DNA from: Procambarus clarkii
Taxonomy: Eukaryota; Arthropoda; Malacostraca; Decapoda; Cambaridae
Reading direction: 5' to 3'
Length of the DNA stretch: 64,000 nt
Assembly: GCF_040958095.1 (NCBI RefSeq)
Contig: NC_091175.1
Span: 20,498,003-20,562,002 of the forward strand
In this document: positions 54,250 to 58,936 of the stretch, piece by piece
Layout of the letters: each line of letters opens with the position of its first letter
Position numbering within the stretch: position 1 is the stretch's first letter
Notes under the pieces: generated by a model
Told to the model about the DNA's origin: nothing
The model's input: the letters and a program-made list of their open reading frames with translations, nothing else
Database searches by the model: none
Program-made: the position numbers and the translations under genes

Positions 54250-54317
54250 TATATATATATATATATATATATATATATATATATATATATATATATATAT
54301 ATATATATATATATATA
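54250..54317. repeat. (TA)n microsatellite
   Basis: About 34 TA units after a TGTATGTATACGTGTG lead-in. It abuts MITE P copy 2. Confidence 0.97.
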
Positions 54318-54709
54318 TGTCGTACCTAATAGCCAGAACGCACTTCTCAGCCTACTATTCAAGGCCCGATTTGCCTAATAAGCCAAGTTTTCATGAATTA
54401 ATGTTTTTTCGTCTACCTAACCTACCTAACCTAACCTAACCTAGCTTATTTTGGCTACCTAACCTAACCTTACCTATAAATATAGGTTAGGTTAGGTTAG
54501 GTAGGGTTGGTTAGGTTCGGTCATATATCTACGTTAATTTTAACTCCAATAAAAAAAAATTGACCTCATACATAGAGAAAAGGGTTGCTTTATCATTTCA
54601 TAAGAAAAAAATTATAGTAAATATATTAATTCAGGAAAACTTGGCTTATTAGGCAAATTGGGCCTTGAATAGTAGGCTGAGAAGTGAGTTCTGGCTACTA
54701 GGTACGACA
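54318..54709. mobile_element. MITE family P copy 2
   Basis: TGTCGTACCTAATAGCCAGA at left and TCTGGCTACTAGGTACGACA at right, with the same inner blocks and CCTAACC/GGTTAGG core as copy 1, here in the opposite relative order. (AT)n adjoins both ends (54,709-54,729 on the right). Confidence 0.88.
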
Positions 54710-54728
54710 TATATATATATATATATAT

Positions 54729-55398
54729 ACAATTAAGGTGAAAACATGGGGGGATACATAAGGGATAAATGTGAGGTGAAACATAGAGGCTGCAGAAGGC
54801 TTATTAACCCATACGAGGCATCTCCTATCCAAACACAAAGATTAATCCAGTGTAATTGGCTTGTTATGTTGGACATTGTCTTCTGTGTTGGCATCGATAT
54901 GTTCTTGTCTTGTCCTTACTCTCATGGTGGGTAGAGTAAATAGTTCCGTGATTTGGGTGTTCATGGTAGGTCGCTCTATTCTTATGTGAATTGCCTCAAG
55001 AATTTATAATCTTCTTGCATCTTGGGTTTTGTCTATTATGCAGGTATCTGCATAATAGACACCTGCATAATATTGTCTATTACCTGCATAATAGACAAAA
55101 CCCAAGATGCAAGAAGATTATAAATTCTTGAGGCAATTCACATAAGAATAGAGCGACCTACCATGAACACCCAAATCACGGAACTATTTACTCTACCCAC
55201 CATGAGAGTAAGGACAAGACAAGAACATATCGATGCCAACACAGAAGACAATGTCCAACATAACAGGCCAATTACACTGGATTAATCTTTGTGTTTAGAT
55301 AGGAGATGCCTCGTATGGGCTAATAAGCCTTCTGCAGCCTCTATGTTTCACCTCACATTTATCCCTTATGTATCCCCCCATGTTTTCACCTTAATTGT
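54729..55398. repeat. 670-bp palindrome of Penelope-like sequence
   Basis: ACAATTAAGGTGAAAACATG at left mirrors CATGTTTTCACCTTAATTGT at right. The arms of about 310 bases read as reverse complements around a centre near 55,063 with several CCTGCATAATAGAC units. In the right arm + strand the sequence encodes the same C-terminal peptide as 56,033-56,251 (KTQDARRL, CCTACCATGAACACCCAAAT). Confidence 0.9.
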
Positions 55399-55449
55399 AT
55401 TATCACCTGACCCAGTGCGGGTATAAAATCAACTAATATTTATATATAT

Positions 55450-55832
55450 GTCGTACCTAGTAGCCAGAACGCACTTTTTGGCCTACTATGCAAGGCCCGA
55501 TTTGCCTAATAAGCCAAGTTTTCCTAAATTAATATATTTTCTCTAATTTTTTTCTTTTGAAATGATAAAGCTACCCATTTCATTATGTATGAGGTCAACT
55601 TTTTTTTATTGGAGTTAAAATTAACATAGATATATGACCGAACCTAACCAACCCTACCTAACCTAACCTAACCTATCTTTATAGGTTAGGTTAGGTTAGG
55701 TTAGGTAGCCGAAAAAGTTAGGTTAGGTTAGGTAGGTTAGGTAGCCGAAAAACAATTAATTCATGAAAACTTGGCTTATTAGGCAAATCGGGCCTTGCAT
55801 AGTAGGCTGAGAAGTGCGTTCTGGCTAGTACG
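55450..55832. mobile_element. MITE family P copy 3
   Basis: TGTCGTACCTAGTAGCCAGA at left, TCTGGCTAGTACGACA at right (four bases shorter than the others). The core runs CCTAACC then GGTTAGG. It is followed by (AT)n at 55,833-55,930. Confidence 0.88.
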
Positions 55833-56032
55833 ACATATATATATATATATATATATATATATATATATATATATATATATATATATATATATATATATAT
55901 ATATATATATATATATATATATATATATATGCGAACAAGCCTGAATGGTCCCCAGGACAATATGCAACTGTTATATATATATATATATATATATATATAT
56001 ATATATATATATATATATATATATATATATAT

Positions 56033-56251
56033 GTGTTGCCCAAAAATACCTGTATAATAGACAAAACCCAAGATGCAAGAAGATTACAAATTCTTGAAGC
56101 AATTCACATAAGAATAGAACAACCTACCATGAACACCCAAATCACGGAACTATTTACTCTACCCACCATGAGAGTAAGGACAAGACCAGAACATAACGAT
56201 GCCAACATAGAAGACAATGTTCAACATAACAAGCCAATTACACTTGATTAA
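56033..56251 (+). pseudogene. Penelope-like C-terminal ORF fragment (left arm)
   Basis: The frame reads CIIDKTQDARRLQILEAIHI, RIEQPTMNTQITELFTLP, then RVRTRPEHNDANIED to a TAA. The ILEAIHI...PTMNTQ pattern resembles the end of a GIY-YIG endonuclease domain, which Penelope-like polymerases carry after the RT. The identical peptide is encoded on the - strand in the other arm (about 56,625-56,841). RT is absent. The family call is from pattern memory and uncertain. Confidence 0.5.
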
Positions 56252-56624
56252 TCTTTGTATGTAGTTAGCAGCTGCCTCGTATGGACCAATAGGCCTTCCG
56301 CAGTTACCTCTATTCTTATGTTCTTATGTTTCACCCCCCCTTTATCCCTTACGTATCCCCCCATGTTTTCACCTATATATATATATATATATATATATAT
56401 ATATATATATATATATATATAATATATATATATATATATATATATTTATATATATATATATATATATATATATATATATATATATATATATATATATATA
56501 TAGGTGAAAACATGGGGGGATACGTAAGGGATAAAGGGGGGGTGAAACATAAGAACATAAGAATAGAGGTAACTGCGGAAGGCCTATTGGTCCATACGAG
56601 GCAGCTGCTAACTACATACAAAGA

Positions 56625-56841
56625 TTAATCAAGTGTAATTGGCTTGTTATGTTGAACATTGTCTTCTATGTTGGCATCGTTATGTTCTGGTCTTGTCCTT
56701 ACTCTCATGGTGGGTAGAGTAAATAGTTCCGTGATTTGGGTGTTCATGGTAGGTTGTTCTATTCTTATGTGAATTGCTTCAAGAATTTGTAATCTTCTTG
56801 CATCTTGGGTTTTGTCTATTATACAGGTATTTTTGGGCAAC
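56625..56841 (-). pseudogene. Penelope-like C-terminal ORF fragment (right arm)
   Basis: Exact inverted copy of 56,033-56,251, with the same peptide and stop. Downstream of the stop (in arm orientation) both copies carry CTGCCTCGTATGGACCAATA, then TTCTTATGTTCTTATG and CCCCATGTTTTCACC. Confidence 0.5.
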
Positions 56842-57057
56842 ATATATATATATATATATATATATATATATATATATATATATATATATATATATATATA
56901 TATATATATATATATATATATATATATATATAACAGTTGCATATTGTCCTGGGGACCATTCAGGCTTGTTCGCATATATATATATATATATATATATATA
57001 TATATATATATATATATATATATATATATATATATATATATATATATATATATATAT

Positions 57058-57446
57058 GTCGTACCTAGTAGCCAGAACGCACTTCTCAGCCTATTATGCA
57101 AGGCCCGATTTACCTAATAAGCCAAATTTTCCTGAATTAATATATTTTCTCTATTTTTTTCTTATGAAATGATAAAGCTACCCATTTCATTATGTATGAG
57201 GTCAATTGCTTTTTATTGGAGTTAAAATTAACATAGATATATGACCGAACCTAACCAACCCTACCTAACCTAACCTAACCTATCTTTATAGGTTAGGATA
57301 GGTTAGGTAGCTGAAAAAGTTAGGTTAGGTTAAGTTAGGTAGGTTAGGTAGTCGAAAAACAATTAATTCATGAAAACTTGGCTTATTAGGCAAATCGGGC
57401 CTTGCATAGTAGGCTGAGAAATGCGTTCTGGCTACTAGGTACGACA
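57058..57446. mobile_element. MITE family P copy 4
   Basis: TGTCGTACCTAGTAGCCAGA at left, TCTGGCTACTAGGTACGACA at right. It forms the right end of the 55,450-57,446 symmetry and the left end of the next one, so two palindromes share it. Confidence 0.88.
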
Positions 57447-57675
57447 TATATATATATATCTAACATCATCTGTCAAATGATAACGCAGGTGTCCTAAGGC
57501 CAGCTCAGCGTGGACAGAAACCTCGCGTAGAGCAAAAGGGCATGTCCGGACCTAACCTAACCTATCTTTATAGGTTAGGTTAGGTTAGGTAGCCGAAAAA
57601 GTTAGGTTAGGTTAGGTTAGGTAGGTTAGGTAGTCGAAAAAACATTAGTTCATGAAAACTTGGCTTATTAGGCAA

Positions 57676-57716
57676 ATCGTCTGTTCACTTGAGAATGAAC
57701 CATGGAGGTTCGAAAC
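57676..57716 (+). ncRNA. hammerhead-like motif upstream of a Penelope-like ORF
   Basis: CACTTGAGAATGAACCATGG followed by AGGTTCGAAACGTCGTG. GAACC pairs with GGTTC as stem II, then GAAAC, and GTC could be the cleavage triplet, with CAC/GTG as stem I. The core is TTGAGAA, not CTGANGA, with both C3 and G8 changed. It lies about 80 bases before the ATG at 57,793, where Penelope-like terminal repeats can hold ribozymes. An inverse copy lies at 58,201-58,241 on the - strand. Confidence 0.35.
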
Positions 57717-57792
57717 GTCGTGCAAATTATACAAATAAGTGTAATACACTCTATAGTAAATCACTTCTTTTCTTCACCTTAAAAGTACGAAA

Positions 57793-57910
57793 ATGAGTTT
57801 TGGAGAACTCCTATTTCAATTAAGCCCTGATGCTAAGAAAATAGTTAGAGGGATAGAAGCCCTAAACCAGAAAATAATAAATACAGAATATGCGGTCATA
57901 TTCAATGAAA
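57793..57910 (+). pseudogene. Penelope-like N-terminal ORF fragment (left arm)
   Basis: ATGAGTTTTGGAGAACTCC opens MSFGELLFQLSPDAKKIVRG, then IEALNQKIINTEYAVIFNEI, and runs into (AT)n. It matches the pattern of 9,539-9,680. The inverse copy is encoded on the - strand at 58,007-58,124. Only the first ~40 codons survive. Confidence 0.45.
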
Positions 57911-58006
57911 TATATATATATATATATATATATATATATATATATATATATATATATATATATATATATATATATATATATATATATATATATATATATA
58001 TATATA

Positions 58007-58124
58007 TTTCATTGAATATGACCGCATATTCTGTATTTATTATTTTCTGGTTTAGGGCTTCTATCCCTCTAACTATTTTCTTAGCATCAGGGCTTAATTG
58101 AAATAGGAGTTCTCCAAAACTCAT
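58007..58124 (-). pseudogene. Penelope-like N-terminal ORF fragment (right arm)
   Basis: Exact inverse of the left-arm frame, same start and same 40 codons before (AT)n. Confidence 0.45.
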
Positions 58125-58470
58125 TTTCGTACTTTTAAGGTGAAGAAAAGAAGTGATTTACTATAGAGTGTATTACACTTATTTGTATAATTTGCACGAC
58201 GTTTCGAACCTCCATGGTTCATTCTCAAGTGAACAGACGATTTGCCTAATAAGCCAAGTTTTCATGAACTAATGTTTTTTCGACTACCTAACCTACCTAA
58301 CCTAACCTAACCTAACTTTTCGGCTACCTAACCTAACCTAACCTATAAAGATAGGTTAGGTTAGGTCCGGACATGCCCTTTTGCTCTACGCGAGGTTTCT
58401 GTCCACGCTGAGCTGGCCTTAGGACACCTGCGTTATCATTTGACAGATGATGTTAGATATATATATATAT

Positions 58471-58842
58471 GTCGTACCTAGTAGCCAGAACGCACTTCTC
58501 AGCCTACTATGCAAGGCCCGATTTGCCTAATAAGCCAAGTTTTCATGAAATAATGTTTTTTCGACTACCTAACCTAACCTAATCTAACATTTTCGGCTAC
58601 CTAACCTAACCTAACCTATAAAGATAGGTTAGGTAGGGTTGGTTAGGTTCGGTCATATATCTACGTTAATTTTATCTCCAATAATAAAAAATTGACCTCA
58701 TACATAATGAAATGGATAGCTTTATCATTTCATAAGAAAAAAATTAGAGAATATATATTAATTCATGAAAACTTGGCTTATTAGGCAAATCGGGCCTTGC
58801 ATAGTAGGCTGAGAAGTGCGTTCTGGCTACTAGGTACGACAT
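58471..58842. mobile_element. MITE family P copy 5
   Basis: TGTCGTACCTAGTAGCCAGA at left, TCTGGCTACTAGGTACGACA at right, with (AT)n next to both ends (58,457-58,470 and 58,841-58,936). Confidence 0.88.
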
Positions 58843-58936
58843 ATATATATATATATATATATATATATATATATATATATATATATATATATATATATAT
58901 ATATATATATATATATATATATATATATATATATAT
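58841..58936. repeat. (AT)n microsatellite
   Basis: About 47 AT units closing the MITE/palindrome chain. Confidence 0.97.

Follow-up and report, generated by a model that had tools for sequence, protein, structure and literature searches.

Alternating inverted-repeat elements and Penelope-like palindromes in TA repeats of the crayfish Procambarus clarkii: separate insertions and possible scars of two-sided priming

In a 64,000-nt stretch of the Procambarus clarkii genome (GCF_040958095.1, NC_091175.1, forward-strand positions 20,498,003 to 20,562,002; C26:20498003-20562002 in the searched assembly; hereafter, the window), four miniature inverted-repeat transposable elements (MITEs) alternate with three palindromes at 54-59 kb, with (TA)n at the joints, as judged by sequence reading and alignment. 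An earlier note on this DNA described the same alternation with (AT)n at nearly every joint, and order and joints matched on rereading. The same grammar, as the note had also claimed, is present at 10,081-10,930, where a forward-strand MITE (10081-10472) is followed by (TA)57, palindrome D (10585-10846) and (TA)41. Does such a chain travel as one unit, and how do its palindromes arise? The chain arose by the accumulation of separate insertions in TA repeats and does not travel as one unit; its palindromes are informative insertion scars, which suggest that Penelope-like elements (PLEs) may be copied simultaneously into the two ends of a cut target.

The host assembly (4.03 Gb, 2308 contigs) was searched with a 401-base query consisting of the first MITE of the chain (MITE1) and its TA run, giving 40 scored places among 121 candidates, and 8 kb around each of the 20 best matches elsewhere was fetched for comparison. 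The earlier note had proposed that MITE, (AT)n and inverted Penelope-like ends form one composite unit, for which the ordered set should recur in the genome. In all 20 loci, the best match to MITE1 stops at the MITE or its TA run (among the 12 best pieces listed for each locus), and the centre of the first palindrome of the chain (palindrome A) is whole in none of the loci L009-L077, among which its matches are single arms only (L016, L017 and L020). The same parts joined by the same junctions at unlinked loci, as a composite transposon would have them, were not found in the fetched loci. The MITEs flanking a palindrome also diverge far more than its arms: MITE1 and MITE2 are 94.2% identical as against 99.1% for the arms of palindrome A between them, and MITE3 and MITE4 94.9% as against 100% for those of palindrome C. 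Nor is the chain a single symmetric structure, as MITE2 and MITE3 point in the same direction.

MITEs and palindromes are nevertheless often found together. Among 17 MITE loci, counted after dropping 3 near-identical local duplicates, a head-to-head palindrome lies beside a MITE across one TA run in six (L009, L011, L012, L016, L022 and L027), and the alternation of MITE and palindrome recurs in L016, L022 and L032. In 22 loci related to palindrome D, the far side of a PLE-touching TA run is a MITE in 17 of 55 cases by raw count. The commonest neighbours across a TA run in the 17 loci are two MITEs (34), followed by MITE-other (30), MITE-PLE (13), PLE-other (9), other-other (5), MITE-satellite (3), satellite-other (2), satellite-satellite (2) and PLE-PLE (2); a family-blind scan indicates that the "other" neighbours are partly palindromes of families outside the annotation library. 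The co-occurrence and the recurring alternation would suit a composite unit, but the palindromes beside MITEs come from several families, their centres differ each time (38 different centres in 40 places related to palindrome D), MITE matches end at the MITE, MITE-only strings occur, and the flanking MITEs are much more diverged than the arms. Because the palindromes differ in sequence and centre, the shared (TA)n target accounts for the co-occurrence, and a composite mobile unit is highly improbable.

The MITE has the features of a TA-microsatellite MITE, namely terminal inverted repeats, a constant interior and TA flanks. The five full copies in the window (the four of the chain and that at 10 kb) are 373-392 bp as cut, differ pairwise by 3.4-7.2% and have terminal inverted repeats of 77-92 bp around an interior that is constant across copies; TA is present on both sides in 66 of 72 full copies. 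In the chain, these are MITE1 (54319-54708, reverse strand, approximately 390 bp with terminal inverted repeats of approximately 90 bp), MITE2 (55450-55836, forward), MITE3 (57058-57446, forward) and MITE4 (58470-58840, reverse), and the whole is bounded by (TA)34 (54250-54318) and (TA)48 (58841-58936, end approximate). MITE strings joined by TA without palindromes also occur, such as the ten full copies and one partial copy in L018. The interior carries runs of TTAGG/CCTAA-like pentamers (window 54403-54529 and 57246-57354, and other copies); TTAGG is the arthropod telomere motif. A MITE residing in (TA)n would insert again and again, every time dividing a TA run so that the new copy has TA to its left and right; later insertions would then yield chains of element, (TA)n and element.

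The Penelope-like character of the palindromes, also recognized in the earlier note, was borne out: palindromes A, B and C carry sequence of one PLE family (P1) and palindrome D represents another (P2). The window and the loci were annotated with a parts library built from L020 and L024. The open reading frame (ORF) of P2 in L024 contains a GIY-YIG domain (Pfam, E 1.2e-5). The ORF of P1 in L020, which starts MSFGELLFQLSPDAKKIVRG, matches 39 proteins, of which six have RVT_1, most have PF26215 and two have GIY-YIG, and some of these relatives are named from Portunus, Oratosquilla and Macrobrachium; a Pfam search gave no significant match for the P1 ORF itself, and a search of solved structures gave none. 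As judged from these domains, P1 and P2 are endonuclease-containing (EN+) PLEs combining reverse transcriptase and GIY-YIG, present in the window as fragments only. The spacing of their outer ends is 33-38 nt in P1, in P2 and in the ORF-start piece, as in a pseudo-long terminal repeat (pLTR) with a 30-40 bp tail: those of P1 are at ORF +117 and approximately +155, and the spacing is 33 nt in the P2 ORF-start piece and approximately 38 nt in D. A forward-strand PLE ORF-start piece in the window (9560-9677) stops at its long tail point and is followed by (TA)38. ORF-start pieces face D-type tails tail-to-tail across one TA run (window 9560-9810, L032 and L069), an expected arrangement if the TA run that one insertion leaves behind serves as the target of another.

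The palindromes are of two kinds, A and D being head-to-head with fillers and B and C tail-to-tail around (TA)n, and the arms of all four, which differ by 0-1%, are too long and too alike for chance. Palindrome A (54730-55440) is separated from MITE1 by (TA)10 and from MITE2 by a short TA run. Its left arm (54730-55044, reverse) is the end of the P1 ORF with the 3' untranslated region, inverted; its centre (55045-55082, limits by eye) is a 38-nt filler of arm-end scraps (CTGCATAATAGAC and similar); and its right arm (55083-55440, forward) contains a TATAAAA box and extends 42 nt beyond the left arm outward, with an arm identity of 320/323. Palindrome D consists of two long-tailed P2 arms (10585-10707, reverse, and 10728-10846, forward), with 0 differences in 80, around a private 20-nt filler (10708-10727). 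Two independent PLE insertions side by side were rejected as the origin of A and D, as no TA run lies between the arms.

A search with palindrome D yielded 40 scored places of 1159 first-look candidates, window D among them, and all were fetched (47 loci, 7 of which are the same place read in the other direction). The 40 places have 38 different centres; L043 and L044, 52 kb apart, share a centre, as do L069 and L070, 121 kb apart. L032 and L034 each harbour two palindromes that share a centre, which indicates that local duplication also happens. In L034 (1474-1917), two same-centre palindromes are joined directly, with a long end at one outer side and a short end at the other.

The arms of each palindrome agree with one another far better than arms from different loci. 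When differences are counted by local alignment to an 80-nt core, the 38 palindromes together have 5 differing positions between their own arms, as against 0.71 per between-locus pair, an agreement reached by none of 20,000 permutations. A G/A variant matches between the arms in 38/38 (27 A/A and 11 G/G) and a deletion variant in 37, being unreadable in one. This arm agreement suggests one RNA or one source locus for both arms. The inner arm ends coincide within one nucleotide in 66 of 76 arms, and the fillers between them (4-31 nt) are rich in arm scraps: of the 601 filler bases, 410 fall within 6-mers that also occur in the 30 nt at the arm end, as against a mean of 41 and a maximum of 100 in 500 shuffles; seven of the 38 fillers are made entirely of arm pieces of at least 5 nt; and 46 of 61 pieces of this kind begin at most 26 nt from the inner end (nearest match taken).

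The inner arm end would correspond to the 5' end of the PLE RNA, as suggested by the position of a TATA box. In L024 and L019, the leader extends beyond the inner end in the upstream direction, with TATTTATA starting approximately 30 nt before that end, and L028 has TATTTATG at the matching position; for P1, a TATAAAA box begins 25 nt upstream of the point at which PLE sequence sets in within palindrome C, in all three loci concerned (L011, L016 and L020). Many PLEs, not all, have a hammerhead ribozyme motif in the pLTR. With an E-value cutoff of 1, no Rfam hammerhead family matched in 53400-59800 or 9500-11000, and a hammerhead ribozyme at the inner end was rejected as lacking an Rfam match; the microRNA-family matches of the same scan, all below gathering scores, are typical of long inverted repeats and TA runs. 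By eye, CTGAAGA with a short stem and GAAA in the D arms (e.g., window 10728-10765) resembles a hammerhead core, a resemblance that no Rfam hammerhead model matches.

The outer ends are typically unequal and lie at fixed points. In the D set, 32 of 38 palindromes are long/short. Outside this query-selected set, 14 of 16 readable head-to-head pairs are unequal, one arm being approximately 20-45 nt longer. Eight of these are found among P1, P2 and ORF-start pieces (L011, L016, L020, L024, L027, L050b, L051b and L055). A family-blind scan of the fetched loci, with MITE pairs and MITE interiors left out, gave the following distances in nucleotides from the arms to TA: window A 0/42, L009 0/34, L011b 0/29, L017a 4/22, L017b 4/37 and L022 1/32. 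The unreadable pairs L012, L046 and L056 were left out of the 16; L025, which duplicates L024, and L032b and L034b, whose centres are shared with a query-selected neighbour, were dropped from the count. Unequal-ended palindromes also occur in repeats with a tRNA-like stretch (GGTTCGAGTC, by eye; L009 4923-5300 and L017 2165-2983), as if RNAs resembling those of short interspersed elements (SINEs) used the PLE insertion route. The repeat unit of L017 recurs in L014 and L022-L025.

Target-site duplications were seen in a small number of loci. L038, which lies outside TA repeats, has one of 16-18 bp (16 by script, 18 by eye), and others are present in L046 (11 bp), L049 (10 bp), L055 (11 bp) and L065 (11 bp, offset 5); in L043, the duplication is 32 bp of TA with TG, and those of L050, L052 and L074 are ambiguous.

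Taken together, these features are probably the result of separate events that use (TA)n: insertion of MITEs, PLE priming from both sides of a target followed by end joining, and later inverted duplication in the cases of B and C. GIY-YIG PLEs would insert into AT-rich DNA, here mostly (TA)n, by cutting both target strands with a stagger, and both 3' ends would then prime reverse transcription on PLE RNA, usually from different but adjacent internal sites, a nearer one for one primer and a farther one for the other. Both complementary DNAs (cDNAs) would reach the RNA 5' end or stop short of it, and their single-stranded ends would be joined by a polymerase-theta-like reaction, leaving end scraps as filler. 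The product would be a head-to-head palindrome with TA outside, as in A, D and the genomic relatives. End joining with templated fillers acts on two 3' single-stranded tails. Two converging cDNAs would have the same sequence, extend up to the RNA 5' end or fall short of it, begin at either start site and provide two such tails, and the scars match these expectations. The agreement of the arms, the private centres, the fixed inner end, the unequal fixed outer ends, the templated fillers and the target-site duplications of some loci are direct observations; the RNA 5' end, the use of both target ends in one event, the identity of the joining enzyme and the origin of B and C are what we infer. 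In a more specific version, which is possible and at present rather doubtful, one PLE RNA serves both target ends, the farther-site primer displaces the first cDNA, and theta-like joining fuses both. If so, a single RNA would account jointly for the pair of start sites, the unequal length of the arms and their agreement, the "tail" of PLEs would be a consequence of two-sided insertion, and the route would extend to passenger RNAs, given the SINE-like leaders with the same unequal palindromes.

Several observations weigh against two-sided priming. The arms could also agree because the copies stem from one master source or because one arm was later converted to the sequence of the other. Six of the 38 D-set palindromes are long/long, and two of the 16 other pairs are exceptions to the unequal pattern, namely window D (4, 0; long/long), which is the query itself, and L017 3655-3946, which is weak (extensions of 1 and 105, arms 74%). 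The D query was palindromic and long/long, so the set is biased against short/short forms and gives no palindrome frequency. No target duplication was found in 29 of the 38 palindromes; most of these cases, not all, are explained by TA on both flanks, and in L030, L034, L060, L067 and L073 none was found in spite of some non-TA flank. Single-armed PLE copies exist (L019, L020, L028 and L055 539-673), and palindromes B and C do not fit the route and could be assembly errors. For a purified PLE of the lizard Anolis carolinensis (Poseidon PAc), no difference in start site between the two strands was seen in vitro (PMC11167929), so that the pairing of a nearer with a farther site is not predicted by that study.

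The strongest competitor is self-priming, by which antisense RNA or cDNA folds back and is copied to a hairpin that integrates, as PMC3846280 reads such structures. It would account for arms that agree almost perfectly, for fold-back scraps in the fillers and for the short hairpins at the centres of L027 and L011. The 5-mers taken upstream of the inner end, as a read-through loop might give, cover 242 of 601 filler bases, which exceeds all 500 shuffles (maximum 222) and also counts against two-sided priming; those of 6 nt or longer cover 90 bases, which is under the shuffle maximum of 99, whereas arm-end sequence is far over its own. Unequal outer ends at fixed points (32/38 and 14/16) are not readily produced by fold-back copying, and self-priming is therefore unlikely. 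A DNA transposon family with long inverted repeats, suggested for the D-type palindromes by their symmetric ends, short length and TA flanks, would be expected to keep one interior, as MITE copies do; the fixed inner end in combination with 38 different centres, and the identity of the arms as the 5' leader of a GIY-YIG-encoding element, leave this origin scarcely credible. That all the palindromes are assembly artefacts or fold-back reads is very unlikely. This explanation draws on the arms of B and C, identical or nearly so and meeting in (TA)n, a self-complementary sequence, but the arms of A carry three differences, the relatives of D have private fillers, unequal ends and in some cases target duplications, and even B and C are delimited by outer TA runs, past which the DNA differs. 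Two-sided priming thus remains the preferred origin for A, D and their relatives.

Palindromes B and C have a different structure. MITE2 is followed by (TA)48, a 41-bp scrap of a satellite with a tandem unit of approximately 260 bp (55932-55972, forward) standing between two TA runs, (TA)30, and palindrome B (56033-56843), centred on (TA)65; beyond B, (TA)45, an inverse copy of the scrap (56932-56972, reverse; 41/41 identical) and (TA)42 lead to MITE3. The left arm of B (56033-56373, forward) is a P1 3' fragment, its centre is a TA run (56374-56502), and its right arm (56503-56843, reverse) matches the left at 340/341, the lone mismatch being the first base, beside the TA run. Palindrome C (57461-58456) lies between (TA)7 after MITE3 and (TA)7 before MITE4. 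Its left arm (57461-57909, forward) consists of 89 bp of unassigned origin, a MITE fragment (57550-57679) and a P1 part (57680-57909) that would run from the RNA 5' end to ORF +117, with ATG at 57793; the centre is (TA)49 (57910-58007), and the right arm (58008-58456, reverse) is identical at 462/462 over the compared stretch, with one 1-nt gap. Thus C duplicates the 89-bp piece, the MITE fragment and the PLE leader as a block, B duplicates the satellite scrap and the PLE piece, and both terminate at outer TA runs. The alternative offered by the earlier note, inverted duplication at (AT)n, is a good candidate for these two, and a third case is L076 (77-1022), where two MITE copies are inverted around a TA run with arms identical at 430/430 and TA runs outside. 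B and C would be later (TA)n-bounded inverted duplications, for which the simplest route would be template switching or fold-back within (TA)n, a sequence that pairs with itself.

The 41-bp scrap next to palindrome B represents that end of the tandem repeat of approximately 260 bp which borders on TA (window 55932-55972; L013, L014, L017, L022-L025 and L027), and in L017 it constitutes the excess of the longer arm over the shorter. Elsewhere in the window, another head-to-head inverted repeat (53557-53692; 68-bp arms, 92%) lacks (TA)n borders, and long minisatellite arrays take up a large share (695-2393, 13619-15896, 18466-27028, 33624-37489, 40714-42896 and 46294-48986).

The route of PLE integration, and the reason for the many inverted ends with a one-sided tail, are left open in the available text of PMC11167929 and PMC3846280. 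In the open-licence literature searched, as far as its texts were available and including PMC11167929, PMC3846280 and PMC12910113, no two-sided explanation of inverted PLEs was found, nor genomic evidence for two-sided insertion with an unequal-arm rule across several families. Head-to-head PLEs are already known; it is the two-sided mechanism that we infer for them. The many small readable insertion scars of this genome can distinguish self-priming from two-sided priming, and they tie PLE activity published in vitro to products in a living lineage.

Among MITEs, Micron of rice is reportedly a microsatellite-associated inverted-repeat element. Plant inverted-repeat elements in or beside microsatellites include MuTAnT, for which the microsatellite is TA (PMC4486113), and MITEs of pineapple (PMC8449440); unlike these families as described in the available texts, the crayfish MITE has inverted repeats of approximately 90 bp and internal TTAGG-like pentamers. 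For the palindromes, a close parallel is provided by the PLEs of Adineta vaga, which have head-to-head inverted pLTRs with palindromes at the inverted junction, and for which self-priming on an antisense template is favoured with a call for further experiments (PMC3846280). GIY-YIG, head-to-head inverted ends, junction palindromes and AT-rich targets are shared with the crayfish elements, and in A. vaga a 31-bp tail is optionally present on one inverted pLTR and target duplications are 8-10 bp, according to the sections available (PMC3846280). The crayfish scars differ in their many minimal palindromes, private fillers, fixed inner end and (TA)n targets.

Poseidon PAc cuts and extends both strands in vitro, initiates at two adjacent sites, most often 111-118 nt downstream of the ORF start, and has a tail of 30-40 bp that is the segment between these sites (PMC11167929). 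Paired unequal arms, fillers and palindromic genomic products, as described here, go beyond this biochemistry and are without account in the available text of that study. In common with PAc, the crayfish elements would use both strands and two adjacent starts (P1 ends at ORF +117 and approximately +155, as compared with starts at +111 to +118), and they have a tail of 30-40 bp.

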